A stretch of 60,337 nt of DNA from the NCBI GenBank assembly GCA_902806095.1, contig CADCVF010000077.1:1-60337 (forward strand). Direction: 5' to 3'. This DNA comes from an uncultured Rubrobacteraceae bacterium (GTDB lineage Bacteria > Actinomycetota > Rubrobacteria > Rubrobacterales > Rubrobacteraceae). This document shows positions 18,179-43,781 of the stretch, piece after piece. Position 1 is the stretch's first letter. Every line of letters starts with the position of its first letter. The notes beneath the pieces are model-generated. The model was given only the letters and a program-made list of their open reading frames with translations. It did no database searches and was not told where the DNA came from. A program made the position numbers and the translations under genes.

Positions 18179-18180
18179 GA

Positions 18181-20766: not shown

Positions 20767-21165
20767 TCACTTCCTTCTCACCTGCACCCGCCATCTGCGC
20801 CGCGCCAATCCCACCAAGAGAGCCCGAGACTCTTCAGAGAGCCAGAGCAGGCGATCCAGGTGTCCGCACTCGGGGCATCGGAGCACCCACTCTCCGTCGT
20901 CGCGTATGGCCTCCTGGTACTGTAAATCCTCACCACCACAGTCACAGCTCTCCCGTAGCGAGGTCTCCTCCCGCTCGACCGGTCTCGCTTCGACCGGCTG
21001 CTCCACCAGTCCTGTTATGCGTAGCATGGAAAGTAAGGCCGCACGGACGAGACCCCGCTGCGGCGTGCTCAGCGCACCGGATGGTCGGTCCCGATCCGTA
21101 AGATGTCGCGCCACTGCTTCCTGATCCGAGGCCCTCCAGAACCAGATGTCACAGTAATAGTTCAT
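20767..21165 (-). CDS. Zinc-ribbon protein of unknown function
   Basis: The 132-residue product contains a Cys4 zinc-ribbon arrangement (CDCGGEDLQYQ ... WVLRCPECGHLDRLLWL) between residues 74 and 107. An Arg-rich C terminus follows. I recognise no further domain. It is divergent from the STAND regulator at 21338, with 172 bp between the starts. Confidence 0.6.
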   Translation of the reverse strand: MNYYCDIWFWRASDQEAVARHLTDRDRPSGALSTPQRGLVRAALLSMLRITGLVEQPVEARPVEREETSLRESCDCGGEDLQYQEAIRDDGEWVLRCPECGHLDRLLWLSEESRALLVGLARRRWRVQVRRK

Positions 21166-21337
21166 GCTCTTTCCTTCCCTGCGCTACTTCGGGTGTTCCG
21201 TGCTATCTGGATCATGTCCCCAGCGCTTCGCCGCTCCCAGCGACAATCCAAACAACCCCACAAACAATTTTCCGAACAAGGGCGTGTTACGATGTCGTGA
21301 GGCAGTACGAACGGTCCAGGATCGGGAAGCAACGAGG

Positions 21338-23737
21338 GTGAACGCCAGTAAGGGAAGCAGGTTCGGGGAGCTACTCCGAAGCTACCGCGACTCGGCCAAC
21401 CTTACCCAGGAGGAGCTGGCAGGAAGGACGGGGCTCACACCCCAGGCCATCGGCCTGCTCGAACGCGGGGAGCGGCGCCGGCCCCACAGGTACACCGTGC
21501 AGAAGCTGGCGGAAGCCTTGGAACTGAGAGGAGAGGATCATGCCGATTTTGAAGCGGCGGCACGTCGCTCCTCCGCCTACCGCGCGGCGGTGGAGCCCCA
21601 CCGCAACCTCTCGGCACCGCTTACGTCGCTAATCGGACGCGAACGCGAGGTGGCGACCGTCGCCTCTCTTCTGCGTCTCGAGAACACGCGCCTGTTGACC
21701 CTGACCGGCCCTGGCGGCGTCGGCAAGACTCGCTTGGCCCTTGAAGTGGCTGAGTGCTCGCATGAGGCATTCGCAGGCGGGATCGTCTTCGTGCCCCTGG
21801 CTCCACTACGAGATGCCGCCCTGCTTCCGTCGGTTCTCGCCGAGACGCTCGGGATCAAGGAGGTGTCGGGGGAGCCGCTGCAGGAAACCGTTGAGAAGCA
21901 TTTGCAAGATAAGCAGGTGCTCCTGGTACTCGACAACTTCGAGCATCTCCTAACAGCTGCCCCCGTGCTCAGCGAACTCGTTGGGAGGTGCCGGCAGCTG
22001 ACGGTGCTGGCTACGAGCCGGGCGCCGCTGCGCCTCGGCGGTGAGCATCAGTTCCCTGTGCCTCCATTACCCCTTCCCGAGGCGGATATCCTGGCATCGG
22101 GAAACATCCCGGAGCACCCCCCTGCGGCTGTGGAGCTCTTTTTGCAGCGCGCTCAGGCCGTCATGCCCACCTTCGAGCTTACCGCCACGAACTCGGCCGC
22201 CGTGGCACAAATCTGTCGGAGGTTGGACGGGCTTCCGCTGGCGATCGAGTTGGCGGCGGCAAGGGTCAAGCTGTTTCCCCCGCAGGCGCTCCTCAACCGG
22301 CTGGATCACAGGTTGCAGTTACTTACGGGAGGAGCCCGCGACCTGCCGGAGCGACAGCACACACTGCGCGACACGGTAGCTTGGAGCTACGATCTCCTCG
22401 ATCCAGCAGAACAGGTCCTGTTCAGACGATTCGCGATCTTCGCGGGCGGCTGCACCCTGGAAGCCGTTGAGACCGTCTGCGGTTCGGAGGAAGACGAGCA
22501 GGCGGTGAGCAGCGTTCTGGAGACACTAGCATCGCTGGTAGACAACAGTTTGCTGGTGGCGCAATCCGAATCCTTTGGGTACCAACAACACGAAGAACTA
22601 CGCTTCACGATACTCGAAACGATCCGGGAGTACGCCCTGGAACGCCTCACATCGAGTGGCGAGCTGGAGGAGGTGCAACGGAAGCACGCACGATACTACG
22701 TAGAACTGGGGGAGGTCGCGCAGCCCGTAGCCTCTAAGCGGTGGGAGGAGGCAGAGTGGTGGTCGAAGTTCACCCGGATAGAGAGAGAGCACGACAACCT
22801 GCGAGCAGCGCTAGGCTGGGCCGTACAGAATCGGGAGGTGGAGACGGGGGCGCGGTTGGCGCTGGCGCTGTGGTGGTTCTGGATCGAGCGCGGCTACCTG
22901 AGCGATGGACGCCGGTGGACGGAGACGCTCCTAGCTCTGGACGAGGCGGGAGACCCAACCGGGGAAACTCAGCTCAAATTGCCCGCTCGTACGAAGGCAC
23001 GCCTGATACACGTAAGTGGCATCCTGTCCATGGTGCAAGGGGACTACGATCGCGCGGTGGAGTTGCACGAAGTAGCCCTGGCCATGTATCGGGAGATGGG
23101 CCACAAGAAAGGAGAGAGTGCCTCGCTCCGCGAGCTCGGGTTCGTATCTTACGAGCGGGGAGACTACGAACGTGCGGCACGCCTGCACAAGCGGTCCCTC
23201 GACCTGGCCCGCGAGTTTGCTACGACTTTCAGCATCGCCTGGAGCCTTCGCGCCTTGGGGGACGCGGTGCGCGAGCAGGGAGATCTCAGACGCGCGAGAA
23301 CTCTGCTGGAAGAGAGCCTGGCATTGTCTCGCGGCGAGGAGCACGCCTGGGGCGTCGTGCGCACGCTCGCCAGTCTCGGAAGCGTTGAGTGCGAAGCAGG
23401 TGAATACTCACGGGCGTCGGGGTTGTACGAAGAGAGCCTGAACCTGGGACGGCGATTGGGGATGAACCTTACCATCCTGCGCTGCCTGGAGGGGCTGGCT
23501 CGAGTGGCGGTCGCGCGAGGGAGGATGGAACGGGCAGCGTGGCTCTGTGGGGCCGTCGCTGCGCTGCGCGAGGATAAGGGCTGGCAGCTCCCACCGGGCA
23601 AGCGCGCCGAGCGCGAGCGTACAGTGGCCGCGGCCCGCGGGGCGCTCGGGGAAGGAGCGTTCGAGGCGGCTTGGGCAAAGGGCCACGCGATGCCGCTGGA
23701 GGAGGCCATCACGAATACCCTAAAAAAGGTCGAGTAA
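21338..23737 (+). CDS. XRE-STAND-TPR transcriptional regulator
   Basis: About 799 residues: XRE helix-turn-helix (residues 8-55), then a STAND ATPase with Walker A GPGGVGKT (124-131), Walker [20 protein letters not shown] and GLPLAIEL. A winged-helix-like segment and TPR units follow (GDYDRAVELHE, GDYERAARLHK, GEYSRASGLYE). The C terminus has the family motif in the form AKGHAMPLEEAI. The GTG at 21338 is chosen because it places the HTH as in the paralogues; an upstream ATG at 21164 would add 58 unrelated residues overlapping the divergent gene. Likely a ligand- and ATP-controlled activator or repressor. Confidence 0.9.
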   Translation: MNASKGSRFGELLRSYRDSANLTQEELAGRTGLTPQAIGLLERGERRRPHRYTVQKLAEALELRGEDHADFEAAARRSSAYRAAVEPHRNLSAPLTSLIGREREVATVASLLRLENTRLLTLTGPGGVGKTRLALEVAECSHEAFAGGIVFVPLAPLRDAALLPSVLAETLGIKEVSGEPLQETVEKHLQDKQVLLVLDNFEHLLTAAPVLSELVGRCRQLTVLATSRAPLRLGGEHQFPVPPLPLPEADILASGNIPEHPPAAVELFLQRAQAVMPTFELTATNSAAVAQICRRLDGLPLAIELAAARVKLFPPQALLNRLDHRLQLLTGGARDLPERQHTLRDTVAWSYDLLDPAEQVLFRRFAIFAGGCTLEAVETVCGSEEDEQAVSSVLETLASLVDNSLLVAQSESFGYQQHEELRFTILETIREYALERLTSSGELEEVQRKHARYYVELGEVAQPVASKRWEEAEWWSKFTRIEREHDNLRAALGWAVQNREVETGARLALALWWFWIERGYLSDGRRWTETLLALDEAGDPTGETQLKLPARTKARLIHVSGILSMVQGDYDRAVELHEVALAMYREMGHKKGESASLRELGFVSYERGDYERAARLHKRSLDLAREFATTFSIAWSLRALGDAVREQGDLRRARTLLEESLALSRGEEHAWGVVRTLASLGSVECEAGEYSRASGLYEESLNLGRRLGMNLTILRCLEGLARVAVARGRMERAAWLCGAVAALREDKGWQLPPGKRAERERTVAAARGALGEGAFEAAWAKGHAMPLEEAITNTLKKVE

Positions 23738-24498
23738 CGAGCAGTGCGCACCGGTGTTATAGCTGTCGCTGCGAGGACGGCTACAAACCTCTCCCGCGCG
23801 ATCTCCAACCCGCCGGTCGAGGCCAGCCCGGGAGACTCCCCTACCATCTGTACAGTTCCACAGAGGAGCAGGGATTTCGAGATCCGGCATCCGCCTACTG
23901 ACTTACTTTGGCCCATGCTCGAACTCTCGAGGGTGACCGCGGGTAACTTCGTGGTGCGGGCCAAGCATTCGTTGAAGAGATACCCGTGATCTCCGTTGCT
24001 CTCGGCGTCCGGATAGACGTAGGCACAGAGCCTGACAGGGCATTCGTCCATCGTTCATTCTATGGACACCTGCTCTCATCTCCTCGACGGAGTCGGAGGG
24101 AAGGACGTGGACGGGCTCGATGAGACCCTTGGCTACCGGGTTGCGGTACGGTTGCAGTACATTCGTAAGCCTTGTTACCGCGGGAGGCAGGATGGTCTCG
24201 AGGAGCAGGTCGTGATCGAGGACCTCTAAGATATTGTCAGCGACAAGATAGTCGGGGTGAACCTGCTCATGGCCCAGGAGGTTGTAATCTCCCCGGTGGT
24301 CAGCCACTTCACACAGCCTCTGCACCTTTGCTTGGCCGGATTACGCCCTCGGCCAGCAGGACGCGGAAGCGTAGCGTCCAAGTCTGCGTGCTTCTGAACT
24401 CACGCGTCCCTTGGAGCACCGCCGGCCACGGCTGTGCCAAAGAACTGCGGCATCGCTGCGGTGTAGCCGAAGAATGACGCGGGAATAGATGAGAGTCC
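23738..24498. other. Gene-poor stretch with one paired arm repeat
   Basis: I see no supported gene. A minus-strand open frame (23903-24325) has no recognisable domain. The class C paired repeat at 24141-24160 is the only clear signal. Confidence 0.4.
24141..24160. repeat. Paired 11-bp arm-type repeat (class C) without a tRNA core
   Basis: TTGCGGTACGG followed by TTGCAGTAC matches the arm repeats beside the attachment sites at 31.0, 48.5 and 52.3 kb. No tRNA 3' half is found nearby. It may be an orphan left by a deletion. Confidence 0.45.
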
Positions 24499-29920: not shown

Positions 29921-30891
29921 GAGGCTGTATGAAAAGTGGTTCTCGGAGGGTATTTCGCTACTCTAGCACACATGAGAAAACCTTACCCCACGGATCTTTC
30001 CGACGCCGAATGGAACTACATAAAGCCTCACCTGCCCGCACCCGAAGGATTCGGACGGCCCAGGACCCACGACCTTCGCGAGATCCTGAACGCTGTCCTC
30101 TACGTCCTAAGAAGCGGCTGCCAGTAGTGGCGCCTGCTGCCTCACGACTTCCCCAGAGGTGGCCCACCGTTTAGTGGTACTTCAGGAAATGGCGCATCGA
30201 TGGCACCTTCGAGAGGATCAATCGAGCGCTCCGCCAACGCCTTAGGGTCCGCTTAAAGCGGGACCCTAAGCCCAATGCTGGCATAGTGGATTCCCAGGGG
30301 AGGTCAAGACGACCGGCGTGGGTGGAGAGGAGCGCGGTTATTGAGTAGGAGCCAAGAAGGTCAAAGGCACTCTAAGCCTCACCTGCTGGTGGACACCCAA
30401 GGGTTGGTGCTCAAAGCCAGGGTACATAGCGCGCAAGGCTGATGGACCTTAAGACGGCATCAAGATCCTGCTTGCGGCAGCGTGGGACGGTTTCCCACGA
30501 CTCTCTCACGTGTGGCTTGAGAGGCGGCTTACAACGCTCAAGAGAAGGGCGCGGATTGGGTGGAGAAGGTACTAGGCTGGAGTGCCGAGAAGTAGTGCGC
30601 CATCCACGGAAGCTCGCCCCCGAAGAGGTAATGAGGATAGGGGCAAGGGAGTGGGCCAAAGAGGGCGTGATGGTCGAGTGGAAGAAGCTTTTGCCCCATG
30701 AGGGTCCAAGGCCCTTGTTGCCCAAGAGGTGGATAGTGGAGCGATCCCTTGCGTGGATCTGCCACAACCGTCGGATGAGCAAGGACTATGAGAGGTTGTG
30801 TGCGAGCGGCGAAGCTTTCTCGTATATGCTGCTATGGCTCGCCTTATGGTGGGCCGATTGGCTCGCACTTGAGGACTTTTCATACAGTCTC
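29921..30891 (+). mobile_element. IS5-type insertion sequence with degenerate transposase
   Basis: Terminal inverted repeats GAGGCTGTATGAAAAGT (29921-29937) and its near-exact complement (30875-30891, 16 of 17 matching) enclose 971 bp. The transposase inside is inactive. No convincing target duplication is visible. Confidence 0.75.
29972..30870 (+). pseudogene. IS5-family transposase, multiple stops and frameshifts
   Basis: Segments in several frames read MRKPYPTDLSDAEWNYIKPH, RTHDLREILNAVLYVLRSGCQ (then TAG at 30125-30127) and, after further shifts, VDTQGLVLKARVHSA. The ending is KRWIVERSLAWICHNRRMSKDYE. This is the DDE transposase of the IS5/IS1182-like group, with the Glu motif (IVERxxAW) still visible. 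At least three lesions make it non-functional. Confidence 0.75.
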
Positions 30892-30996
30892 AAGGGGAAG
30901 TCCAAGTCGAGAAGCACGGACTTCCGAAGATTCATCTACTTAAAGAGTAAGCAATGTATTCTTGTGGCCTTGAAAAAGTGCTTAGCCAAGCTCGGG

Positions 30997-31247
30997 TTGC
31001 AGTACGGTTGCTGTAACTTAGGCTGGAAGGAGTTCTGCCGAACTTACATTTTTCCTGCAAATCGCAACAAAAAACAGAGCCGACGAGCGGACTCGAACCG
31101 CTGACCTGCTCCAGCTACGAGAAAGAATCGGCGGATTTCGGGGTGTTGGCGGTTGTTTCAAAACCCTTTAGGTAAGCCGAATACGCGCACCAGTAACATC
31201 CTGGAACAACCGGAAATTGGGCCGGTTGGTGTACGGTTGGTGTACAG
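30997..31247 (-). repeat. tRNA-Thr 3'-half attachment-site copy 2, flanked by arm repeats on both sides
   Basis: Left: class C repeat (TTGCAGTACGG/TTGCTGTAAC, 30997-31016) and an A-rich spacer (CCTGCAAATCGCAAC). Core: 31077-31121, the 45-bp tRNA-Thr 3' half. Right: class A repeat (31226-31247) in about 170 bp nearly identical to copy 1. Arms on both sides are the layout of an attP or of two elements meeting at one core. Confidence 0.7.
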
Positions 31248-31317
31248 AGTTCGGGCTTCGTCGCGGCCATCCTCGGGGAGGCTTGCGATTGGAACGAAGG
31301 GGCTTGAGTGACTTCGT

Positions 31318-31563
31318 TTAGTCGAAAGGGGTGTAGGTCATCACGTGCCAGGCGCCCTCTACGTCGACCTCGAGCTGCGCGAAGCCTATCGTGGTGCCAT
31401 GGGGGCGGCTGACCTCAACGTAGAGCCCCTGGCCGGCTTCGCCCCCGACGGGGTAGGTGTGATCGACGGTCCCCAGATACCCTGCCTCGATGCCGAGCTC
31501 CGGGATGTCCTCCGGGATGGGGACCATGTCGAGCTCCTGATAAGTGGTGCGCGTCTTTGCCAT
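31318..31563 (-). CDS. DUF4926-like small protein
   Basis: The 81-residue product (MAKTRTTYQELDMVPIPEDI ... GYLGTVDHTYPVG ... FAQLEVDVEG) fits the DUF4926 pattern of a small beta-barrel-like protein with a Gly-Thr-Val core. Members are often encoded next to DUF6883 genes, as here. I infer an antitoxin or immunity-like partner role; this is not shown by the sequence. Confidence 0.65.
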   Translation of the reverse strand: MAKTRTTYQELDMVPIPEDIPELGIEAGYLGTVDHTYPVGGEAGQGLYVEVSRPHGTTIGFAQLEVDVEGAWHVMTYTPFD

Positions 31564-31590
31564 GATAAGTCTATTTTACCGGCTCACCGT

Positions 31591-31983
31591 TCAACCGACC
31601 ACCGGGTAGGCGGTGGCGAGGTGAGGATGATCGTTCGGGGGAGCGAGCGCCCACCCGGTTTTGACCGGCCCCTCGTTGCCGTTCGGACCCTTGAAGCGCG
31701 GGATAAGGAGCTCCCATTGCCGCACGGTGCGGTCCGGCTCGTTCACCTTCTGGGGCGGACGTTCCACGGGTGTGGCCTGGAAGAGTTGCTCGCGGATCAG
31801 GCGCTCCAGCAGCTCCGCGTCACCCTCCCCCACGCCGAAGACGCTACGCCACAGCCTGAGCTTGTTCCTGCCTTCGGGATGGGTCGAGGAGAGCAGGTAA
31901 CCGCTTACCTTTCTCTCGCGATCGATGATGCCTCTGGCGAACCACTCGACGGGTGGTTGAGGCTGCCCGGATGATTCGCTCAA
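31591..31983 (-). CDS. DUF6883-like protein
   Basis: About 130 residues. The body has DRERKVSGYLLSSTHPEGRNKLRLWRSVFG and RQWELLIPRFKGPNGNEGPVKTGW, typical of DUF6883, a family frequently found at the end of toxin proteins or beside DUF4926. The start is taken as the TTG at 31983, which overlaps the TGA of the upstream gene (TTGA). No closer ATG or GTG precedes the conserved region. Probable toxin-like partner; inference from context. Confidence 0.62.
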   Translation of the reverse strand: MSESSGQPQPPVEWFARGIIDRERKVSGYLLSSTHPEGRNKLRLWRSVFGVGEGDAELLERLIREQLFQATPVERPPQKVNEPDRTVRQWELLIPRFKGPNGNEGPVKTGWALAPPNDHPHLATAYPVVG

Positions 31984-32411
31984 GGGGCGCGGGGGGAGCC
32001 GGCTTCCGGTCTGTTGTCGATGGTCTGGATGTTCAGGCCGGGGTGATGCTCTCGCCAGTATTGCAGCGGGCGCGCGTTCTCCCGTATCCGCTGATCCACC
32101 TCGTCCTGGTGAGCCCGATGGTAGGCCCGGGCGATGTCGAGGTGGTCTTCGGAGATGCCGGACTCTTCGAGGGACCTTTGCCGGCCCATCGCCTGGTAGC
32201 CGGCAACGATCTCCCACACGTCGAGCGCTGTGCCGGGCACCCACGCGCGACGGCCACTCCCAGTCCCGCGGAACGCTACGCCGGGATACCGCTCCGCCCT
32301 TGCAACCTCTTCGGCGGATCGTCTGAGGCGCTCGTACTCGGCGACGTCCAACACGACGCCTATGCGGTCTCCGCTCTCGTTGGTAAGGTAGCGCACTCCC
32401 ATTTCTTCCAT
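31980..32411 (-). CDS. Antitoxin-like protein (Phd-like start, DUF433-like middle)
   Basis: The 143-residue product begins MEEMGVRYLTNESGDRIGVV and LDVAEYERLRRSAEEV, like Phd/YefM-type antitoxins. It continues with RRAWVPGTALDVWEIVAGYQ and GISEDHLDIARAYHRAHQDEVDQ, resembling the DUF433 domain. Such fusions usually sit before a PIN-like toxin; here the next gene is DUF6883. The ATG at 32411 has only a weak GAGAAG ribosome site. An IS3 relic is inserted upstream. Confidence 0.65.
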   Translation of the reverse strand: MEEMGVRYLTNESGDRIGVVLDVAEYERLRRSAEEVARAERYPGVAFRGTGSGRRAWVPGTALDVWEIVAGYQAMGRQRSLEESGISEDHLDIARAYHRAHQDEVDQRIRENARPLQYWREHHPGLNIQTIDNRPEAGSPRAP

Positions 32412-32537
32412 TGTAACTTCTCGACGGTCAGCGCAGACTCCGACATCCGGCCCAAGGCATAGTAGATGCCCTCTTGAAAGTCTCTGGTGAACCTCTCCGG
32501 GTCTGATGGAGGCTCCGACCTTTGAGAGGATGGAGCT

Positions 32538-32858
32538 ATGACAAGAACACGCAAGTACCCACAGCAGATCCGGAGGGAGGCCCTCCGGCTGGTGCGGGCA
32601 CACCGAGACGAGTACGACTCGGTGTGGGCAGCGATCACCTCGGTTGCCAGCAAGTTCGGGACGGTTCCGCAGACGCTCCACGGTTGGCTCCATCGTGCCG
32701 ATGTTGATGAGGGTGTCGTGGGCGGCCTCTCCAGTAATGAACGCCAACGGATCAAGGATCTCCAACGCCAGAACCGTGAGCTGCGACGGGCCAACGAGAT
32801 CCTCAAAGCCGCCTCGGTTTTCTTCGCGGCGGAGCTCGACCCGCGAGCGAACTCATGA
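32538..32858 (+). CDS. IS3-family transposase OrfA
   Basis: The 106-residue protein has an N-terminal HTH (YPQQIRREALRLVRAHRDEY ... VASKFGTVPQTLHGWL) and a C-terminal leucine-zipper-like helix (LQRQNRELRRANEILKAASVFF). It is the usual OrfA that frameshifts into OrfB. It is intact, but the partner OrfB is broken, so transposition is unlikely. Confidence 0.85.
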   Translation: MTRTRKYPQQIRREALRLVRAHRDEYDSVWAAITSVASKFGTVPQTLHGWLHRADVDEGVVGGLSSNERQRIKDLQRQNRELRRANEILKAASVFFAAELDPRANS

Positions 32859-33572
32859 GCGCCTTCATCGACCAGCACCGTAACCGCACAACGGCTGAGG
32901 GGCTGAAGTGGGGAGTCGAGCCGATCTGTGTGCCGTGTTACCGATCGCCCCAGCCACCTACTACGCTGCCAGAAGACCCGCACACCTTCACACCGCAATG
33001 TCCGCGACGCCTGGTTGAGCGGTGAGATCCACCGGGTTCAGGCGGCCAACTATGGTGTCTATGGCGCACCGAAGGTGTGGCGCCAGCTCAACCGAGAGGG
33101 CATCACAGCGTGGCCCGCTGCAGCGTGGAACGGCTCATGCGCCGGGAAGGACCCCGTGGGGTCGTGCGTGGCGGCTACAAGAGCGTCACCACGCCCGCCA
33201 AGGATCCCGACGACCGGCCGGATCTGGTAGATAGGAACTTCAGCGCAACCCGCCCAAAGCAGTTGTGGGTAGCCGACCTTACCCCTACGTGCGAACCATC
33301 TCAGGGTTCGTGTATGTGGCGCTTCTCATAGATGTGTTCAGCCGCATGAGATCGTGGGCTGGCAGGTGTGGCGCAGCCTGCACACCGACCTTGCCCTAGT
33401 AGATGCCTTCGAGCAGGCCATCTGGCGAGGCGAGGAGCGGCTTGAGGGCCTGGTGCCTCACTCTGATCGTGGCAGCCACTACACCGCGATCCGCTACGCT
33501 GAGCGGCTCGGTGAAGTCGGTGCCCTAGCCTCGGTCTCCACTACGGGTGATTCCTACGCTGGATGCCACTGA
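32855..33572 (+). pseudogene. IS3-family transposase OrfB, frameshifted and truncated
   Basis: The pieces read SAFIDQHRNRTTAEGLKWGV, YGVYGAPKVWRQLNREG, ERLMRREG...RGVVRGGYKS, NFSATRPKQLWVADLT, then FVYVALLIDVFSRM and LVPHSDRGSHYT. This is the IS3 integrase core with two of the DDE acidic residues. Several frame changes occur. The sequence stops near 33572, before the final Glu region and the right inverted repeat. Confidence 0.8.
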
Positions 33573-33643
33573 AGCATTGATGTCTTCATAGCTTAAACGT
33601 CCAAACGTTCGCTGGCATACCTTGCGAACCCGATGTGCGGGTT

Positions 33644-33973
33644 TTAGTCGGCGAGGAGCTCCGAGAAGCGCAGCGGAGCAAGCCCGCTCTTTTGGCAGAG
33701 CATAATCGCTATGGTGTGGCTTAGGATCTTGCGCATAAAGCGGCTGCGCAGGTGCCAGGTGTCCCTGGCCACACCTTCTTGGCGTTGTAGCGTCCCACCA
33801 ACTGCCCAATTACGGTCTCTATGATGCGGCGCTTCTGGACCAGCCACAGCAGCCAGCGCCTGGGCTCGGTCTCGGAGACCTTGTGGGGGGTAAGGAGCCT
33901 CAAACCCCTCTCTAGCATCCCTTCGGCGAGCTCCGGGCGGTCTATCACGCGGCATCCGAAGAGGGATTTGTGG
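33644..33973 (-). pseudogene. IS982-family transposase, C-terminal relic
   Basis: Two frames give LFGCRVIDRPELAEGMLERG ... KRRIIETVIGQLVGRYNAKKV and then ARDTWHLRSRFMRKILSHTI. This is the last ~105 residues of an IS982 transposase, including the IETV Glu motif. A frameshift lies near 33775. The N-terminal two thirds are absent. Confidence 0.65.
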
Positions 33974-34164
33974 ATGGCTCGCTACACGGTGGAGACGCCT
34001 ACAGGGACGAAGCGCAGGACGGTCTACGGCAAGATGCGTGCTGAGGTGCGCGACAAGCTGGCGAAGGGCCTGGCGGAGCGGGCGGGCTCGTCTTCGACGA
34101 TGAGAACATGACCGTGGGCGAGTACGTGACGCGCTGGCGGAAAGGGTGCTCTACCGCAAAATAG
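33968..34164 (+). pseudogene. Tyrosine-recombinase integrase, N-terminal relic
   Basis: The frame reads WMARYTVETPTGTKRRTVYG and KMRAEVRDKLAKGLAERAG. After a one-base shift it gives GLVFDDENMTVGEYVTRWRKG and ends in TAG. This is the AP2-like arm-binding domain followed by the beginning of the SAM-like core-binding domain of phage/ICE integrases. The catalytic domain (R...HxxR...Y) is missing. It is the only integrase trace in the window and fits the attachment-site repeats. Confidence 0.7.
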
Positions 34165-34690
34165 CGGCCTTCCGCAAGGAGGGCATGGTGAGCCTCTTCT
34201 CCCCGCCGAAGGCCAAGCGTAGGGTGCTGCCCCTTGCCATCCGCAGGAAGATCGTGGACCTCAAGGCCGGGCACCCTCGCTGAACCTGGAGGAGATCGCC
34301 AACATCTGCGGCACCCTCTTCGGGCGCAGGCCCGACGCCTCCGGCTACGCCCGCGTGAAGCACTGGAGGGTGTACGCTGAGGAAGGGCTCGCCTCCTGCG
34401 AGGTGGCCGTCTGGCTCGGCGACGGGAGATGGCCCTGGAGTACGGGGGGCGAACCCTCTCGCGCTACGACTTCTTGCTCTCGCTGGGCGCCAAGCTGGAG
34501 TCGGTGACCAACCAGCGCCTGTTCGCCAGCCCCTACGAGACGGGACAGCACAAGCTCTTCGCGCTCTCCGCCCTCGGCGAGGGCGGCTGGATCAAGGTGA
34601 TGAGGCTGAAGGGCTACGCCCCCAGGTCGCCCGGGCGCCCGAAAGCCCTCCAGCAGGCCCTGTTCCGCTACGCGGAGGCGCTTAAGCGCG
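34150..34690 (+). pseudogene. HTH transposase-like protein, degraded
   Basis: The frame directly after the integrase relic reads VLYRKIAAFRKEGMVSLF, PPKAKRRVLPLAIRRKIVDL and, after a shift, LNLEEIANICGTLFGRRPD. A further frame (34429 on) has VTNQRLFASPYETGQHKLFA and ALGEGGWIKVMRLKGYAPR. I recognise the first part as the HTH region of an actinobacterial transposase-like family; the second could be its C-terminal part. The boundaries are approximate. Confidence 0.5.
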
Positions 34691-34734
34691 AGTCCGCTGC
34701 CGACCGGGTCGGGCGAGGGGGGCGCTCCCGTCGC

Positions 34735-34930
34735 TCAATCCTCGGGGGTGGCGACCCTGATCCTGCTGCCGTCGGGGTCCCTGATCTCGATCTCCCGCGC
34801 TCACGGGGCCTCTTCCACCTCCGCGCCGAACTCGCCCGCCGCGACTACGACGACCAAGGCACTCCGACTCACGACCACGCCAGCACACTACGAGACCAGG
34901 ACGCACCAGCGTTGGGGGAACAGCTCAGAG
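34735..34930 (-). pseudogene. VOC (glyoxalase-like) protein, C-terminal relic
   Basis: The frame reads ALVVVAAGEFGAEVEEAP, a TGA, then AREIEIRDPDGSRIRVATPED and a stop. The IEIRDPDGxRIRVATP end is characteristic of vicinal-oxygen-chelate proteins. The TGA falls where Trp is common, and the N-terminal module is absent. Confidence 0.5.
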
Positions 34931-35485
34931 AACTCCACTGACTCGCTGGTAGCGCTCGTAGATCACGCGTGAGTTGAACGACCTGGTCTCGATCAGGTCT
35001 AGTCGAATGTCTTCGGTGACCGGCGGCAGGTACGGCGTACCGCCGCCGACGACGATCGGATTTCGGAACATGCGCAGCTCGTCGACGAGGCCGAGTTCGA
35101 TCGCCGCCGCGGCCAGGCCGGCGCCGCCGATCTCGACGTCCTTGTCGGTTGCGTCGAGCGCCGCAGCGACTTCCTCGGCCACCGACGCCTTGGCGAGCCG
35201 GGCGTTGCCTTGAACGCTGTCAAGCGTGCGGCTGAAGACGGTCTTCGGGATCGCGCACCAGACGTCGGCGAACGCGGCGCCGAGCTCGTTGTCGCGCAGC
35301 GATGGATCTGTCTCCCACACCAGCATGGTCTCGTAGAGCCTGCGGCCGCACAGGTAGCCGCCGAGCTTACGTACCTCCGCAAGGTGGAACTGAAATAGCT
35401 CCTCGCTCGGGACCGTCCACTCGATGCCGCCCTCGCGGTCGGCGATGAAGCCGTCTACCGAGACGCTCATCGAGTAGATCAGCAT
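34925..35485 (-). CDS. Dihydrofolate-reductase-like (RibD C-terminal domain) protein
   Basis: The 186-residue product starts MLIYSMSVSVDGFIADREGG and has YLCGRRLYETM, the NADPH-site-like DVEIGGAGLAAAAIELGLVDEL, and NPIVVGGGTPYLP. This is the DHFR/RibD_C fold of about 180-200 residues, common as stand-alone reductases of unknown substrate. Start at 35485 fits the family N terminus exactly. It is a complete gene among fragments. Confidence 0.85.
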   Translation of the reverse strand: MLIYSMSVSVDGFIADREGGIEWTVPSEELFQFHLAEVRKLGGYLCGRRLYETMLVWETDPSLRDNELGAAFADVWCAIPKTVFSRTLDSVQGNARLAKASVAEEVAAALDATDKDVEIGGAGLAAAAIELGLVDELRMFRNPIVVGGGTPYLPPVTEDIRLDLIETRSFNSRVIYERYQRVSGVL

Positions 35486-35512
35486 GGCTTCACGGTAACG
35501 GGACAGCGCGCG

Positions 35513-35620
35513 GACATGGTGGGCGATCTGTTCCACGCCGGCCACGTGGCGCTGTTGCGGGAGGCTCGACGCCACGGCGACTGGCTGATCGTCGGCGTGC
35601 TCTCCGATGAGACGGCGGCG
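35513..35620 (+). pseudogene. Cytidylyltransferase-like relic
   Basis: The frame DMVGDLFHAGHVALLREARR followed by GDWLIVGVLSDETAA matches the nucleotidyltransferase start with the HxGH motif (HAGH) of glycerol-3-phosphate/ethanolamine-phosphate cytidylyltransferases. Homology starts at the Asp and stops after about 35 residues, so only a slice of the gene remains between the reductase and unrelated sequence. Confidence 0.6.
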
Positions 35621-35958
35621 TCGCCGACCCTGAGTATGGGGATCGCCTTTTCGTGCATGACCGCTCCTCCCTGTTCCGGTTGCCCTCCAAGGGGATTGTA
35701 CGGGTGACGAATCCCGCTCCCACCCTCGATCCGTCTTTCGCCGTGGGGCGTGAGGATCGCGGAGAGGTTTCTCGCTTCTGCCGTGCTTCGCTCCGGGCGG
35801 GCGTTGCGAGGTTATCGGCGAGGTCTGCGACGAGGCCGCCCACGAAGATGCGCTGGAGGACGAGAGTGACGCTCTCTAGGAGTGCCGGGGCGCAGGCCCC
35901 ACCAGCCTCACCGCAAGGTCTACGCAGTGTGCGAAAATGGGGGTTAGGAGGCGTAGAG
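35621..35958. other. Gene-poor stretch
   Basis: No gene is supported here. Open frames on both strands lack recognisable motifs or ribosome sites until the AGGAGG of the next antitoxin gene. Confidence 0.4.
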
Positions 35959-36240
35959 ATGGCGGAGAAGCAACGAACCGAGATCGACGCCGGGCTCCTG
36001 GAGGAGCTGCGCGCTAAAGCCCACCAGCAAAGCCGCACGGAGAGTGAGCTGCTGGAGGAGATCATCCGCAGCTACCTCGTCCTGGCGCCTAGACGGTCGA
36101 ATAGCCTGGGCGTCTTTTTTGAGAACCTCGAGCGTCGTCGTCGGGAGGAAGGCGTCGAGCCGCTCTCCGAGGAAGAGGCGATAGACCTTGCCAACGAAGA
36201 GCTGCACGCCATGAGGCGGGAGCGCAGGGCGGCGCCGTAG
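35959..36240 (+). CDS. Antitoxin of a PIN toxin module
   Basis: The 93-residue product has an RHH-like N terminus (QRTEIDAGLLEELRAKAHQQ ... TESELLEEIIRSYLVL) and an acidic tail (EEGVEPLSEEEAIDLANEEL) typical of antitoxins. AGGAGG precedes the ATG at the usual distance. Its TAG overlaps the presumed start of the PIN toxin, an arrangement that couples the two. Confidence 0.8.
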   Translation: MAEKQRTEIDAGLLEELRAKAHQQSRTESELLEEIIRSYLVLAPRRSNSLGVFFENLERRRREEGVEPLSEEEAIDLANEELHAMRRERRAAP

Positions 36241-36707
36241 CTCGCGCGGTACTCGACCCTGGTGTCCTGATCAGCGCGGCCATCTCTGAGAAGGGCGCGC
36301 CATGGGAGGTTTCAAGGCGCTGGATGGCGGGCGAGTTCGCCCTTGTCGTTTCACCACGCCTGCTCCACGAACTGCAATCGGTCCTTGCGCGGGAGAGGTT
36401 TCGCCGGTACTTTACCTACGAGGAGGCGACCGAGTACGTGAGTTGGCTGCACCATGGAGCCGAGGTCGTAAGGGATCCCGCCGAAGGTGTGGTCCGCGGC
36501 GCAGTGGAAGCCGACCCGGACGATGAGTACTTGGTCGGGCTCGCGGGGACCCTGGGAGGTGACGACTCCTACCTTTTGTCAGTCGACCGTCACCTGCTCG
36601 ACCTCCCGGATCAGGCCGTGAAAGACGGCGAGGGTCGTACCTTGGCCCGTATCCTGACCCCAAGGGAGTTTGTTCGCGAGATCGAGCAGGAAGCGAGCCC
36701 CGGGTAG
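36237..36707 (+). CDS. PIN-family toxin without a canonical start codon
   Basis: In the frame of the large downstream open frame the sequence reads ARAVLDPGVLISAAISEKGA, then PWEVSRRWMAGEFALVVSPRL and PDDEYLVGLAGTLGGDDSYL. This is a PIN-domain toxin (COG1569-type): the essential first Asp is in VLDPG, with later acidic residues in HELQSV and DDEYL. No ATG, GTG or TTG lies before that Asp; the expected GTG start is GTA (36237-36239), overlapping the antitoxin TAG. Starting at the ATG at 36324 would remove the catalytic Asp. Either the start is unusual or the toxin is silenced. Confidence 0.72.
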   Translation, partial: VARAVLDPGVLISAAISEKGAPWEVSRRWMAGEFALVVSPRLLHELQSVLARERFRRYFTYEEATEYVSWLHHGAEVVRDPAEGVVRGAVEADPDDEYLVGLAGTLGGDDSYLLSVDRHLLDLPDQAVKDGEGRTLARILTPREFVREIEQEASPG

Positions 36708-36944
36708 CCTCGCCTGTAAACGGATGCATCCATCTCGAACGCCGACGAATCAGAGGCGGGATCGACGGTGCGCCCTAGCGCAAGAACAACGGCGCTTCGT
36801 CGGAGACCAGCGAACGGCGCACCGACAAGAGGGCTACGGTCGGGAGGTCCTGACCTCTCTAGCCGTCCCCCACCCTCATGGCCCCGTACGCGCGACGTTT
36901 TTGTGTCCGTGTTACGTCGTACACAACGAGTTTACACGAGAAAC

Positions 36945-37030
36945 GGGGCTCGAACCTCTGGTCGCATCTCCAGCTACGAGGAATTATCGGCCGGTCTCGG
37001 GGTGTCGATGGTCGTTGCCCAGGTTGTGTG
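36945..37030 (-). repeat. Degenerate attachment-site-like sequence
   Basis: GGCTCGAACCTCTGG, then TCTCCAGCTACGAGGAATTATCGGC and GGGGTGTCGATGGTCGTTG align with the core and right flank of copies 1 and 2, at clearly lower identity. The T-loop part (TTCGAGCC on the minus strand) is recognisable. It is probably an old copy. Confidence 0.4.
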
Positions 37031-37089
37031 CCCGAGTCCTAGCACCTATGGTATGGGATGAGAGCCTCGGGGAAAAGGAGTGGTTTGCG

Positions 37090-37476
37090 GTGGTCGAGTG
37101 GTTTGGAAGACCCGAGATCGAAACGGACGAGGTCAGGGAGCGCCGGATCACCATGGAGGCCGTCGTCGATGCCTACGACGAACAGGAACGGGCTATAGGC
37201 TGGTACTACTATCTCGAACGGAGGCTCGATTCCCCCTTCCTCGCCCGGTGTGCCACCAGGAGATCCACCTCTCCACTAAAGGTGGGAGACGAGATCGAGG
37301 TGATCGGCATGGCTCCCGTAGAGGATTGCGAGCACGATATGTTCGTCGAGATGAACTGGGATGATGAGGGTCTGGCGATACCTCTCTCCCAGCTCGAAGT
37401 GGTCGACGCCGACGACGAAACCCGGGAGGCGGTAGAAGACTGGCTCTACTGGACCAAGAAGGGCTACAAGTTCTGA
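37090..37476 (+). CDS. CcbP-like calcium-binding protein
   Basis: The 128-residue product has the pattern RITMEAVVDAYDEQERAIGWYYYLE, SPLKVGDEIEVIGMAP, CEHDMFVEMNWDDEGLAIPLSQLE and DWLYWTKKGYKF. This is the Calci_bind_CcbP family first described as a cyanobacterial calcium-binding protein; acidic surface residues bind Ca2+. The GTG at 37090 is used because AAAGGAG lies nine bases upstream and the family starts close by. Cytoplasmic. An ATG further upstream (37056) is possible. Confidence 0.78.
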   Translation: MVEWFGRPEIETDEVRERRITMEAVVDAYDEQERAIGWYYYLERRLDSPFLARCATRRSTSPLKVGDEIEVIGMAPVEDCEHDMFVEMNWDDEGLAIPLSQLEVVDADDETREAVEDWLYWTKKGYKF

Positions 37477-37477
37477 G

Positions 37478-37675
37478 TCAGAGGGCCGCCGAGCGCGCCC
37501 GACAGGGTTCCTTGGTGCTCTTCGATCTCCCGGCGCAGGTAGGCTTTCGGATGGCGCCGATCTCCACGAGGTCCACCCTGCGCGCCAATAGATTCTCAAG
37601 ATCCTCGAGAGGCCCGAAGTACGCCCCAGCGTCCTCCTCTGCCGCAAGATATGCAAGGACCTTGGTGTGACCCCG
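37478..37675 (-). pseudogene. MNT-type nucleotidyltransferase, C-terminal relic
   Basis: The frame reads AAEEDAGAYFGPLEDLENLL and ARRVDLVEIGAIRK, and after a one-base shift YLRREIEEHQGTLSG. This is the second half of a minimal nucleotidyltransferase, the antitoxin of HEPN/MNT modules. The GSxxR...DxD catalytic part is lost, and no HEPN partner is found. Confidence 0.55.
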
Positions 37676-37748
37676 CCATGAAAGTCGGGACAACGCCGGC
37701 CGATGTCCGAGGACCAAGAAGCAGGACGACGGCCGGCGCCTGTTGCGG

Positions 37749-37883
37749 TTGGTGTACGGGTTGGTGTACAAGGGTCTCGGCGCGTCCGCCGGGCATCCGC
37801 GTCCGCTACAATTGTCCTGCAAATCGCAACAAAAAACAGAGCCGACGAGCGGACTCGAACCGCTGACCTGCTCCAGCTACGAG
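37749..37883 (-). repeat. tRNA-Thr 3'-half attachment-site copy 4 with class A arms on its left
   Basis: Left arm: TTGGTGTACGGG/TTGGTGTACA (37749-37770, spacing 12). The same A-rich spacer as at copy 2 (CCTGCAAATCGCAAC) leads to the tRNA 3' half at 37839-37883. The right flank (GTTGCTGGGGTGTGCAGG) resembles class B flanks but has lost the paired arm repeat. Confidence 0.65.
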
Positions 37884-38095
37884 TGTGCGGTCAGTGGTTG
37901 CTGGGGTGTGCAGGAGGTTGCAGATCCCGCATAGGCAACGGGTTTCCTGTTCCCTGCCTTGCCCACTGTTGCAGGGCATTGCGTCCGGATTAGGGTCAAG
38001 TGAACTACCTTCAGTGCGCGTCATCCGGGTTCCCGAGGCACCCTTCCAGTAGATGTGGCCCTCGAGTTACTTACCGAACGGTGTCTCCGGACGCA

Positions 38096-39226
38096 TCAGT
38101 AGATAGAGACGCTTGCGCGTTTCTTAGCTACGCGTAGGAGCGCCACTTGCCAATCCCACCTGGCGCGCTCGGGGTTGGCCTCGATCAGGCTCCTCATGCG
38201 CTCGAAGTACTCGTTGGCAAGCCTCTCGCGGTCCGCGGGTGTTCGGTCCGCGTCTAATCCTGCGAACAGGGGCGCCTCGGTGAACGCCCGCATGAACTCG
38301 GTATACGAGCCGGCGAAAGTGCTAGCGTCCCGTCTCTGCTCGTACTCGGGCCACAACTGGTCCGAAAACTTCGCCTTGGTAGCCTCCTTCAGGGTCAGGT
38401 CTTCGGTGAGAGTCCCGGAACGCAGGGGTTCGGTGAACTCCTCCATGGTGCGGTGGTAGGCGGGCATGTTCATTCGCCCGTATTCCTCGGGACGGATGAA
38501 CCCTGCGTCGACCATCGCTAACAAGGGTTCGTTCGTTAGGTCCATCAGGGACTCGCCGCCGGTACTGCCGGTGTCGTCCGTTGTGACCGCCACCACGATC
38601 AGCTCGCCGCCCGGTCGCAGCTCGCGTGCCCGGTGACCGAGGAAGCGCCGCCAATCCTCGCTCGCTTGCTCGGCGTAGGCCTTCCGCACCCTTTGTCCGG
38701 CCCGCTGGGCGTAGACGTGATCGGGTATGCTGCATGGGACCTTGCTCAACCAGTGCACCGAGATGGCGGTCCAACCCAGCGAGAGGAAGCCATCCGGAAA
38801 GATGCGTTCGTAGAACGATTTTCCGGCCGCCAGTGCGAAGGCGTTCTCTACGCCACGCAGGTAACTCTCCGGCGAGCGCTCGACCAAGGCGAAGAGCGAG
38901 CCGAAGTCGTTCTGGGGCAGGTCGGTGTGGACAACCACTATCGGGGTGGAGACCGCCGTCCGCCGTCGCATCTTCTCTAGGGCGAGGCGCATGGGTTCCA
39001 AGGAGTTGCGCCCCTGCGCGGCCCCTAAGTCTGCTACCGTTGCGGGCTCCGCCCCCTGGGGCACGGTCATCTCCCCCACGGCCCGCTCCAAGAGAGGCAA
39101 CCCTAGACTGTCGGCCTTCTGCTGAGGACGGGAGTGCTCATTGTAGAAACCGTGCCCTTTCATCACCGCATCGGCGGACGCTGCGGTTCGCTGTGACGAC
39201 CCCGGCGCCAGATTAGACCCGCTCAT
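38096..39226 (-). CDS. SABATH-like carboxyl methyltransferase
   Basis: The 376-residue SAM-dependent methyltransferase resembles plant salicylate/jasmonate methyltransferases (PF03492). It has the start VMKGHGFYNEHSRPQQ, SAM-binding motif I VADLGAAQGRNSL, HTDLPQNDF (SAM-adenosine side), and SLGWTAISVHWLSKVP, which corresponds to the SSYSLHWLSxxP substrate-pocket motif. Such enzymes methylate carboxyl groups of small acids. ATG at 39226 has GGAGGAG five bases upstream. It is divergent from the CoA-transferase at 39467, so the two could share an acid substrate pathway; that is inference. Confidence 0.82.
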   Translation of the reverse strand: MSGSNLAPGSSQRTAASADAVMKGHGFYNEHSRPQQKADSLGLPLLERAVGEMTVPQGAEPATVADLGAAQGRNSLEPMRLALEKMRRRTAVSTPIVVVHTDLPQNDFGSLFALVERSPESYLRGVENAFALAAGKSFYERIFPDGFLSLGWTAISVHWLSKVPCSIPDHVYAQRAGQRVRKAYAEQASEDWRRFLGHRARELRPGGELIVVAVTTDDTGSTGGESLMDLTNEPLLAMVDAGFIRPEEYGRMNMPAYHRTMEEFTEPLRSGTLTEDLTLKEATKAKFSDQLWPEYEQRRDASTFAGSYTEFMRAFTEAPLFAGLDADRTPADRERLANEYFERMRSLIEANPERARWDWQVALLRVAKKRASVSIY

Positions 39227-39466
39227 CTAACTCCTCCCCGAACCGTAGCCACCTTTTGAGATCTTAGCGGAATTTCCATGTGAGTGAGAGGGAAACTGTA
39301 ACCGTCAAGTGAGCACCTGCCAGCGAACCGACACCCCTTGACAAGCGTGATTACTATCGGCCTAGGCTAGCGGCGGCGATCGAAGCTCAGTAAGATAGCT
39401 GCGGCGCCTGCAAGCTGCCCCGTTCGGCTTACCAGTAAGTTACTGCCCACGTTAGGAGTCAGCTAG

Positions 39467-40786
39467 ATGGCAATCAGCAATCAAGCAAAGACGTACCCGC
39501 CGGCGATCCGTGCGGCGCTGACCGAGAAACAATGTCAGCCAGCAGCAGTACTGGAACACATCGACGCAGGAGACGATCTCATCGTCGGCATGTTCAACTC
39601 TGAGCCACTGACCGTACTCGATGCCTTAGAAGCCAACGCTGACCGGTTATCGGGCGTCCGGATCCATCAGATGTTCCCCTATCGCGAACGGCGTTATATG
39701 CACGGCGTCTTCCCCGGGCTCCGCCACGTCTCTTGGTTCCTCTCCCCGGCCAACCGCGAGGCCTTCCACAATGATACCTGCGATCTGGTACCGAACAGCT
39801 TCAGCGAGGTGCCTGCTCTGATGCGGCACACTACGAAGTGCTCGCTGGTGCTGGCGGCCGTCTCGCCTCCGGACCGCCACGGCTACTTCTCGCTCGGCAC
39901 CCACGCGGATTACGCCGCGGCCCTCATCGGGGAGGTCCCCTTCTTCGTGGAGGTGAACCGCAGGATGTCTCGCACTTATGGGGAGAACCAGGTACACGTG
40001 AGCCAGATCGTCGGATGGTGCGAGGCCGATTACCCGCTTAGCGAGCTACCAGCGCGACCCCCACGAGAGGCCGACCGCGAGATCGCCGGGTACGTCGCCG
40101 AGCGTATACCTGACGGCGCCACGCTGCAGGCGGGCATAGGCTCCATTCCCAACGAGGTGCTCGGGCTGCTCCGAGACCACAAGGACCTTGGGGTCAACAC
40201 GGAACTCCTCTCCGAGGGGTTCGTCGAGCTCATCGAGAGCGGCGTCATCACCGGCACCCGTAAGCGAAACCACCGCAACAAGGTTGTAGCGACTAACGCC
40301 TTAGGGAGCCAGAAGCTCTACGAGTTCGTGGAGGAGAATGCGGGCGTCGAGTTCTGGCCCGTTGATCACACCAACGACGAGCGCAATATCGGCGAAGAAG
40401 ACAGCTTCGTGGCGATCAACGCCACCCTCGAGGTCGACTTCCTGGGCCAGTGCGCATCCGAGTCCCTCGGCAGCGAGTACTGGTCCTCCTCGGGAGGCCA
40501 GCCTGACTTCGCGCGCGGGGCGCTCTTCTCCGAGCGCGGCCAGTCCTTCATCGTGCTGCACTCGACCACCGCGGACGAAGCAACCTCTCGCATCGTGGCG
40601 CAGCTTCATCCGGGTGCCGCCGTCACGACGTTCAAGAACACAGTGGACCGGGTCGTGACCGAGTACGGTGTGGCGGAGCTGCGCGGGAGCAGCATCAGGG
40701 AGAGGACGCGCAAGCTCATAGGCATCGCCCATCCGAAGTTCCGTGACGAACTGGAGCGTAAGGCAAGAGAGCTAAACTATCTCTAA
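39467..40786 (+). CDS. Acetyl-CoA hydrolase/4-hydroxybutyrate CoA-transferase family enzyme
   Basis: This 439-residue class I CoA-transferase has the oxyanion/CoA segment GATLQAGIGSIPNEVL, the active-site Glu region GVNTELLSEGFVELIESGVITG, and the C-terminal VTEYGVAELRG and RTRKLIGIAHPKFRDEL motifs. It moves CoA between short-chain acyl-CoA and carboxylic acids, or hydrolyses acetyl-CoA. ATG has AGGAG upstream. It is cytoplasmic, complete and of family length (about 430-440). Exact substrate unknown. Confidence 0.9.
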   Translation: MAISNQAKTYPPAIRAALTEKQCQPAAVLEHIDAGDDLIVGMFNSEPLTVLDALEANADRLSGVRIHQMFPYRERRYMHGVFPGLRHVSWFLSPANREAFHNDTCDLVPNSFSEVPALMRHTTKCSLVLAAVSPPDRHGYFSLGTHADYAAALIGEVPFFVEVNRRMSRTYGENQVHVSQIVGWCEADYPLSELPARPPREADREIAGYVAERIPDGATLQAGIGSIPNEVLGLLRDHKDLGVNTELLSEGFVELIESGVITGTRKRNHRNKVVATNALGSQKLYEFVEENAGVEFWPVDHTNDERNIGEEDSFVAINATLEVDFLGQCASESLGSEYWSSSGGQPDFARGALFSERGQSFIVLHSTTADEATSRIVAQLHPGAAVTTFKNTVDRVVTEYGVAELRGSSIRERTRKLIGIAHPKFRDELERKARELNYL

Positions 40787-41139
40787 CTTCTGGCGCGGAC
40801 TAGGAATTGGTGAGGAAGCATACCCCGTGCCAGATCAAGATGGAACACCTGACCTGGAAGGGGCCGTCGCCCCGACGCTGGCGACTATCGATGCCAAGCT
40901 CTTGCCTGCCCCGACGTCGTCGAGCATGCCTTCGATCCAGCCGAGGCAGGGCAGCATGACATCGAGCAAAGCAGTCGAGGGGTCGCGTCGCCGCGTTGGC
41001 ATTCCGAGTTTTCCAGAAGCCTAACTGCGGCTCCCTACACCTGTTACAGGTTAGATTCTACTGCTGACGGACTGCTGACAAAGTCCCCGAGACCTAGATC
41101 GGGAGCTCTTCATTTTGTAAGATTTGCAGGAAAAACGAA
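40787..41139. other. Gene-poor stretch before attachment-site copy 5
   Basis: No gene is supported. A short plus-strand frame at 40827 has no conserved features. Confidence 0.4.
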
Positions 41140-41309
41140 GAGCCGACAAGCAGACTCGAACCGCTTTCCTGGTCATTACGAGTGATCCATCAGGCGTTGC
41201 AGGGGTTTGCAGAGAATTGCAATTCCCGTGTATCTAAACCGGTTTCTATTCTCCGGGTTGCTGTGAGTTGCACCGTATTGCGCTCCCGGTGGTATCAGAG
41301 TGGTATCAA
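41140..41309 (-). repeat. tRNA-Thr 3'-half attachment-site copy 5 with class B arms
   Basis: Core 41140-41182 has drifted (GACAAGCAG for GACGAGCGG). The right flank holds class B features: a Cys-like GCGTTGCAGGGG series and the paired repeat TGGTATCAGAG/TGGTATCAAC at 41290-41309. A partly inverted form of the A-rich spacer (TTTGCAGGAAAAA) lies on the left. Confidence 0.6.
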
Positions 41310-41465
41310 CATCGTCCTAGTACTACTGGGTTTGCGGAACAGCCACATCCCCCGCAGGCGAAGGGCTCAACGCGCTCGGAGAACCGACCACACTCGCACA
41401 CATCCAGCCCGACGGGCCAAGCGACCCACCGAAGACGCGGGAGATCCGACACCCATGCGGGTGGG

Positions 41466-42731: not shown

Positions 42732-42779
42732 CTAATGCACGGCCAAATGGATACTCGACGGTGAGAAGTTCATCAGAAG

Positions 42780-43132
42780 AGCACCATTAGCATCACGGAG
42801 ACGTTCCCCAGCACGTGCGCGCCCATGTTCACGTAGATGTTCCTCTTCCACCACGCTGCATACACCATTGGAAACAGCCCTTAGATCCTACCCACGTTTT
42901 GCCAGGGCGTAAAGAAGTGGTAGATGGAGAAGAGCACCGTGTTGATGAGCGGCGCCCAAGCCCCAAAGCGCGAGAGTCTCGGCAGCAGGTACCCCCGGAA
43001 GTACATCTCCTCCACAATGGGGCCGGCCACAGCGTTTACGGCGAACCCCACGACCCACGTGGTAACCAACGCCGCCGTGGAGTACCGGGAGAAGTCCTCG
43101 AGCAAGAGGAACGAGTCGGCTAGCCAGGAGAA
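42780..43132 (-). pseudogene. CPBP-family intramembrane protease, relic
   Basis: The frame WLADSFLLLEDFSRYSTAAL leads to AVAGPIVEEMYFRGYLLPRL and FSIYHFFTPWQNVGRI. A TAA then intervenes, and GLFPMVYAAWWKRNIYVNMG and HVLGNVSVML follow in the same frame. The EExxxR and FxxxH motifs of CPBP proteases are intact. The N-terminal helices are missing because homology begins at the SDR fragment near 43132, and the TAA cuts the last segment. Confidence 0.68.
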
Positions 43133-43689
43133 GACGTTCCTTCCAACCCGATGCCGGAGGAGGCACCCGTGATCAGCACGGTACCGCCGTCTAAGGGCGG
43201 AAGTGAGGACGCCACCTCATCCCCCGACTCGGTGTCCGACAGTGTCCCCAGGATGGCGAAGATGAGACCCGCCGCATTCAGCACGTTGCGCGCGGCGTGG
43301 AACCCGTCCCAGCGTTGCCTCAGTGCAAGCAGCTCATGCCTCGACACAGACCTGGGATCCAACTCGAGTGTGCGCCGGTTCGCGGGCATGTTGCCCGCGA
43401 AGGTCACGGCGAGCATCGCGAGGTAGCAGATCATGCCCGCCCAGGTGAAGCGTAGGGAGCGACGATCCCGTGTCAGCGATAGTACGGGGACGAAGGAGAC
43501 GATAGTGGCCATCATGAAGGGGGGCATGATCTTGCCGAAGCGGGCCGTTATGGCCTGCTCGGCGCTGGCGTGAGCGTCGGTGGGCAGCCGGTACAGGGCC
43601 GGATGGAACCCGACAAGGCCGCCGAACTCGTTGCCCGTGAGTACCCCCGTTAAGAACAGGTTGGCAAAACGCGTCGCCGTAAAGATCAT
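43133..43689 (-). CDS. DUF1772-type membrane protein read through into an SDR start
   Basis: From the ATG at 43689 (AAAGGAG eight bases upstream) the first ~155 residues are a four-helix DUF1772/anthrone-oxygenase-like membrane protein (FTATRFANLFLTGVLTGNEFG ... AGNMPANRRTLELD ... LRQRWDGFHAARNVLNAAG). The frame continues without a stop into VASSLPPLDGGTVLITGASSG, the N terminus of a short-chain dehydrogenase, and ends at the CPBP relic about 43120-43135. A deletion has thus removed almost the whole SDR. The membrane part may still work. Confidence 0.65.
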
Positions 43690-43781
43690 CTTGTTGTCTC
43701 CTTTCTGCGGGTTCATTTCCTGGGGGCGTCCGGAGCGCCGGTGAACGGTACTTTGTCTTTTCTTCCTTCCGGCTCACCGTT

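Follow-up and report, generated by a model that had tools for sequence, protein, structure and literature searches.

The attachment core at position 31,077 of the window (the whole stretch of DNA analysed, which is the complete 60,337-b contig C77 of G000, a 98.6%-complete, 3.83-Mb genome in 85 contigs) is very probably a chimeric internal att site (attI) within a tandem array of integrated elements. Its two halves are the right end of one accreted element and the left end of the next, their joining being best explained by tandem accretion of the ordinary, integrase-mediated kind at the 3′ end of a tRNA. The 45-bp core, GAGCCGACGAGCGGACTCGAACCGCTGACCTGCTCCAGCTACGAG (31,077–31,121, minus strand), is the 3′ half of tRNA-Thr(CGT). 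An imperfect class C arm pair, CGGGTTGCAGTACGGTTGCTGTA (30,993–31,015, plus strand; repeat matching at 10 of 11 bases), lies 84 bp leftward of it and a perfect class A pair, CGGTTGGTGTACGGTTGGTGTAC (31,223–31,245, plus strand), 146 bp rightward; the former is the P′ arm at the right end of the left-hand unit, and the latter is the P arm at the left end of the right-hand unit. The observation of an earlier note, that the core has arms of differing class on its two sides, was thereby borne out. The core-proximal flank TTTTTCCTGCAAATCGCAACAAAAAACA (31,049–31,076, plus strand) recurs in G022, G023, and G027 at the end of class C elements nearest the tRNA (89–94%). The C/A left/right pair was found in no other genome of Rubrobacteraceae compared, and a class A left end was seen in this genome alone among the family genomes compared.

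Five related genomes have a single element at tRNA-Thr(CGT) that is bounded at both ends, and in all five these ends have a like arm class: GTTGGCATCA in G020, GGTTGCAGTA in G022, GGTTGCGGTA in G023 and G027, and ACTGCTGAC in G028. The matched ends indicate that an attP of this element family has its core between arms of one class, and since the site at 31,077 has class C on the left and class A on the right, its halves come from different elements. The expectation, also raised earlier, that a lone element end has arms on one side only holds in these genomes for five of five tRNA-proximal ends and for four of five distal ends, the fifth distal end being a mixed junction itself. An odd-looking att site becomes a readable record of element stacking at one tRNA gene.

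Cores and arms of the array

The core corresponds to the tRNA-Thr(CGT) 3′ half in reverse complement, and its copies are found on the plus strand of the window. Eight co-oriented cores start at positions 18,181, 31,077, 37,839, 41,140 (4 mismatches), 48,364, 52,350 (2 mismatches), 54,483, and 59,858 (4 mismatches), along with one partial core at 48,570; a further six are located on contigs C19 and C21, giving 14 in the genome. Rfam and ARAGORN gave no match on the window, as the cores are only 3′ halves, and the whole tRNA-Thr(CGT) gene was detected by ARAGORN in the relatives G001, G006, G007, and G008. The number of core copies per genome varies from 0 to 18 (at most 2 mismatches; nine genomes of the genus). 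Such a pile-up is special to tRNA-Thr(CGT), because the 14 other tRNA 3′ ends tested in the genome are each present at only one to three places. The G000 assembly, in which the anticodon was read for part of the tRNA genes, did not yield an intact tRNA-Thr(CGT) gene, which was probably lost in an assembly gap at the array end. The search of G000 for the gene flanking tRNA-Thr(CGT) in G008 returned distant paralogues only, and the comparison of proteins of the array contigs with those of the tRNA-Thr flanks of closed genomes revealed no common chromosomal neighbours fixing the array ends. An integrase able to act at the tRNA-Thr(CGT) core was not found in the assembly either; with neither this nor the intact tRNA gene, the assembly does not show the active end of the array.

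The arms are tandem repeats which, in relatives, lie just 3′ of the stop codon of tyrosine integrases (Pfam Phage_integrase and a SAM-like N-terminal domain) ending tail-to-tail with the tRNA gene. The tRNA begins 77–140 bp past the stop for 52 of 98 distinct integrases, and a tandem 11–12 bp arm pair, searched for from −6 to +32 bp of the stop, accompanies 47 of these 52 vs. 6 of the 46 others. The class C pair is placed 5–18 bp past the integrase stop in many relatives, behind integrases adjoining tRNA-Leu, -Ser, -Ala, -Val, and -Thr; the arm classes were assigned by sequence, not by binding. In the window, 10 tandem pairs were observed vs. 0.9 expected from Markov-1 shuffles (period 10–12, at least 9 consecutive matches, a threshold below which the imperfect class C pair at 30,993 falls), and 8 of the 10 are found at fixed core distances, 80–92 bp to the left or about 142–161 bp to the right.

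Units along the window

The unit to the left of 31,077 begins with the core at 18,181–18,225 (minus strand) and a class A arm pair at 18,329–18,350 (plus strand). Within it, at 24,023–24,159 (plus strand), an integrase C-terminal relic (hmm 347–381) is directly followed by a class C arm pair whose core is lost. Because this pair comes after the relic with no core behind it, the 18.2–31.1 kb interval is composite, with at least two elements fused. A degenerate DDE transposase-like region with a weak PF13586 match (29,929–30,900, plus strand, approximate extent) would occupy the place by the right end where an integrase is expected.

The unit to the right, 31,077–37,839, has matched ends (A/A), its right end being marked by a class A pair of period 12 at 37,747–37,769 (plus strand). 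It contains an integrase N-terminal (arm-binding) relic at 33,791–34,161 (plus strand), for which the closest N-domains with readable arms, L271, L332, and L322, all have GGTGTA arms (class A-like), and a degenerate stretch, both core-like and class A left-end-like, at 36,946–37,016 (plus strand; 75% over the aligned part). Comparison of this unit with phage and plasmid records revealed just transposase and scattered single-gene similarity, the phage records matching transposase sequence only. The core at 37,839–37,883 (minus strand) separates it from the unit 37,839–41,140, which ends with a class D pair at 41,060–41,079 (plus strand). The next core, at 41,140–41,184 (minus strand), is again chimeric, with D arms on the left and B arms on the right, and the class B pair at 41,289–41,308 (plus strand) is the left end of the unit 41,140–48,364. 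The unit 48,364–48,592 has shrunk to about 200 bp and consists of the core at 48,364–48,408 (minus strand), class C left-end arms at 48,525–48,546, and the partial next core. An imperfect class C pair at 52,266–52,288 (plus strand) forms the right end of the unit 48,570–52,350, and the remaining cores, all on the minus strand, are located at 52,350–52,394, at 54,483–54,527 (class B left-end arms at 54,632–54,651), and at 59,858–59,902 (class B left-end arms at 60,000–60,019). In most units of the window the arms are unmatched or lost, so that intact elements with two ends are exceptional.

The cargo includes five large STAND-like regulators (TPR with AAA/NB-ARC) at 1–1,824, 8,353–10,710, 21,164–23,737, 45,690–48,086, and 49,001–51,889; most start with an HTH, the last contains a guanylate cyclase domain, and the family of the pair at 1–1,824 was assigned from DNA similarity alone. 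They can be considered a recurrent cargo, since homologues are present within core-bounded units of G017 and G035. Conjugation or relaxase families were not found among the 39 ORF segments, a subset of those in the window, that were scanned with Pfam.

Proposed accretion and decay

It is proposed that each arriving element contributes one core, copied from the tRNA 3′ half, and two arm pairs. One pair would lie about 150 bp inside the end distal to the tRNA, and the other, at the integrase end, about 90 bp from the core. A newcomer would integrate either into the 3′ end of the tRNA or into an internal core already present, after which its left end and the right end of the resident would share one core, with resident arms on one side and those of the newcomer on the other. 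At 31,077, the composite unit 18.2–31.1 kb would thus contribute its class C end, and the unit 31.1–37.8 kb, starting and ending with class A, its left end. Subsequent decay would convert integrases to relics, and insertion sequences and deletions would remove cores or arms, the truncation at 48.36–48.57 kb being a putative example of such a deletion; cargo modules lined up between att sites would be left. Directly repeated att cores from the tRNA 3′ end do bound the units, and on C77 the att ends are kept with no functional integrase (searches with PF00589 and with our own integrase HMM found no intact integrase on the contig, only the two relics). The cores, arms, tRNA identity, and relics, the matched ends in relatives, and a change of neighbour at a core between genera are observed. 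That the elements were joined by their own integrases, the order in which they would have arrived, and any activity of the array at present are what we infer.

A different reading of the same row is an integron-like cassette array, in which an integrase supplied in trans would capture and shuffle integrase-less modules lying between tRNA-derived cores. It would account for at least eight co-oriented cores in 60 kb, for contigs C77 and C19 both lacking a complete integrase, for a core-bounded module without an integrase that is common to G000 and G035, and it could draw on the integrases with related arms that are present at other tRNAs of G000. We consider it very unlikely, as integrase relics lie at the expected place beside several cores, the ends show several arm classes instead of one common site, and the genome offers no identified integrase for the tRNA-Thr(CGT) core. 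Moreover, no gene with a Phage_integrase domain was found on the contig, the cores are tRNA 3′ ends and not attC, and accretion followed by decay accounts for the same facts.

Still less probable is the joining of the two sides by homologous recombination or duplication between short repeats. The cores have exact repeats of 45–69 bp in common, and the region 18,177–18,329 is about 95% identical to 31,073–31,225, which would favour such an exchange. However, the breakpoints fall at cores with integrase arms at fixed distances, all cores share a single orientation, and in relatives it is tyrosine integrases that put intact elements at tRNA-Thr(CGT).

Mixed cores in relatives

The earlier note offered two alternatives for 31,077, an intact attP of an element or two elements joined at one core, of which the second is supported. 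A single element with two different arm classes would give a core with arms on both sides, which is attP-like, and classes A and C do have the common frame GGTTGnnGTAC. Nevertheless, this reading is extremely unlikely: ends were matched in class in all five single-element genomes, the arms at 31,077 are unlike, the site is not entered from either side by a complete element, and the A/A unit on the right offers a partner for the A side. Nor did Pfam scans of proteins from the adjoining units reveal phage structural families, which a prophage end would lead one to expect.

Mixed-arm cores are also present in the closed chromosome of G022 (L243), in Rubrobacter taiwanensis (L124), and in several MAGs. 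An assembly chimera formed at the repeated core, suggested by the 69-bp exact repeat common to the sites at 31,077 and 37,839 and by the 85 contigs of the genome, is hardly credible given these mixed cores in a closed chromosome and other assemblies, and swapping the repeat-sharing sites would merely circularise the A/A unit, which is the excision product of the accretion model.

Whether neighbouring elements avoid a shared arm class was also considered. By hand count, mixed arms are present at about 12 of the 13 cores whose arms can be read on either side, vs. roughly 86% predicted from class frequencies alone, and the excess is therefore no evidence of avoidance. In Rubrobacter marinus (G028), the interval from tRNA-Thr to the distal core measures 233 kb (C1:1362701 and 1595546) with matched class D ends; it is either one very large element or several.

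Arm class and tRNA target of the integrases

The ability of unrelated elements to share one core was approached through 37 integrases in which the N-domain, the arms, and the tRNA could all be read. Similarity of arms was correlated with N-domain identity when the catalytic part was allowed for (partial r 0.58), and a common tRNA with catalytic identity when the N-domain was allowed for (partial r 0.39); both correlations are at the permutation floor (p = 2e-4), and as the permutation ignores phylogeny, their strength is to be read with care. For the same arm and different tRNA, the N-domain value was 0.65 and the catalytic value 0.55, and for the same tRNA and different arm, the values were 0.42 and 0.63, respectively. 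Judged from these comparisons, the N-terminal domain goes with the arm class and the catalytic domain with the tRNA target, the two parts of the enzyme having separate histories and each its own DNA site. Since arms track one domain and the tRNA target the other, elements with different arms can share a core. This arm/N-domain and tRNA/catalytic pairing provides a testable account of how unrelated elements come to use one integration site, and also a means of tracing an orphan att end back to its integrase.

A broader proposal, possible but somewhat doubtful at present, is that the arm-binding N-domain and the arm repeats travel together as one interchangeable part, independent of the catalytic part that fixes the tRNA, and that this yields compatibility groups. 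If true, elements with different arms would stack on one core without mutual excision, and arrays of a dozen or more modules could result. No earlier report of such N-domain/arm exchange was found in a limited literature search. In G007 (L206, 7,276–8,154), the integrase by tRNA-Thr(CGT) has lost the N-terminal arm-binding domain, and the ends of its unit differ in arm class.

The class C pair GGTTGCAGTACGGTTGCAGTA is located beside related integrases in three predicted viral contigs (L375, L376, and L377), two of which have a tRNA-3′-end-like sequence about 90 bp further on and AT-rich DNA unlike that of Rubrobacter; a search of viral contigs found neither an exact class A pair nor an exact core. 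Given the presence of class C there, the arm code, if real, may reach well beyond this integrase family.

Exchange at cores between genomes

Up to the core at 54,483 and across it, the left flank is about 94% identical to G015, a member of a different genus. Beyond the core, identity drops to about 40%, and G015 has class E arms where the window has class B. The rpoB genes of G000 and G015 are 82% identical, and the left module has therefore been transferred horizontally, with a switch of right neighbour at the core. The module concerned (53,351–54,510 of the window; L239) is a luciferase-like monooxygenase module ending at the core.

The unit 41,140–48,364 has in G035 a homologue of similar size which is also core-bounded, with 82% and 74% identity over two stretches; no recent transfer is claimed here, because rpoB is 82% identical between G000 and G035. 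Parts of the unit 31,077–37,839 are 86–89% identical to a contig of G001, where the left end is replaced by other sequence.

Comparison with known arrays

The array is a known arrangement, that of CIME/ICE accretion, unusually long here. In Streptococcus, decayed elements keep their att ends and are arranged in tandem at a tRNA 3′ end with a chimerical attI, and the tyrosine integrases of neighbours in such tandems are distantly related and differ in their att sites (PMC5704250). The window similarly contains decayed tandem units at a tRNA 3′ end that have a chimeric attI in common; however, the reviewed tandems (PMC5704250) consist of few elements, whereas here at least eight cores are present on one contig and 14 in the genome, the host is a member of Rubrobacteraceae, and the arm classes are directly readable. 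No earlier report of such arrays in Rubrobacteraceae was found in the literature search.

Long arrays are represented by the ssrA islands of Dehalococcoides, where many tandem islands are bounded by a repeat of the RNA-gene 3′ end, about half have no integration module, and a status as cis-mobilizable elements was discussed as possible (PMC3146451). Those islands use ssrA as the target and a large serine integrase (PMC3146451), in contrast to the tRNA-Thr(CGT) and tyrosine integrases with arm sites considered here. Tandem ICEs of actinomycetes (Frankia, Streptomyces) have tyrosine integrases at tRNA 3′ ends, pairs of them excise singly or together, and in some pairs the integrases come from different subfamilies (PMC3218068). 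The same survey recorded no such conjugative elements in Rubrobacteridae (PMC3218068), and, unlike these ICEs, the window contains no recognised complete conjugative element. The likeness to chromosomal integron arrays consists in a row of co-oriented accessory modules with short recombination sites between them; it ends with the tRNA-derived cores in place of attC, the integrase arm sites at the module ends, and IntI, which was not found.

Repeated tRNA-Thr 3′ ends were also observed in the MAG contigs L157, L160, L143, L144, and L159, labelled Deltaproteobacteria and Myxococcota, some of which have two to three such ends within 10–45 kb. This suggests that similar arrays may be present in other phyla.
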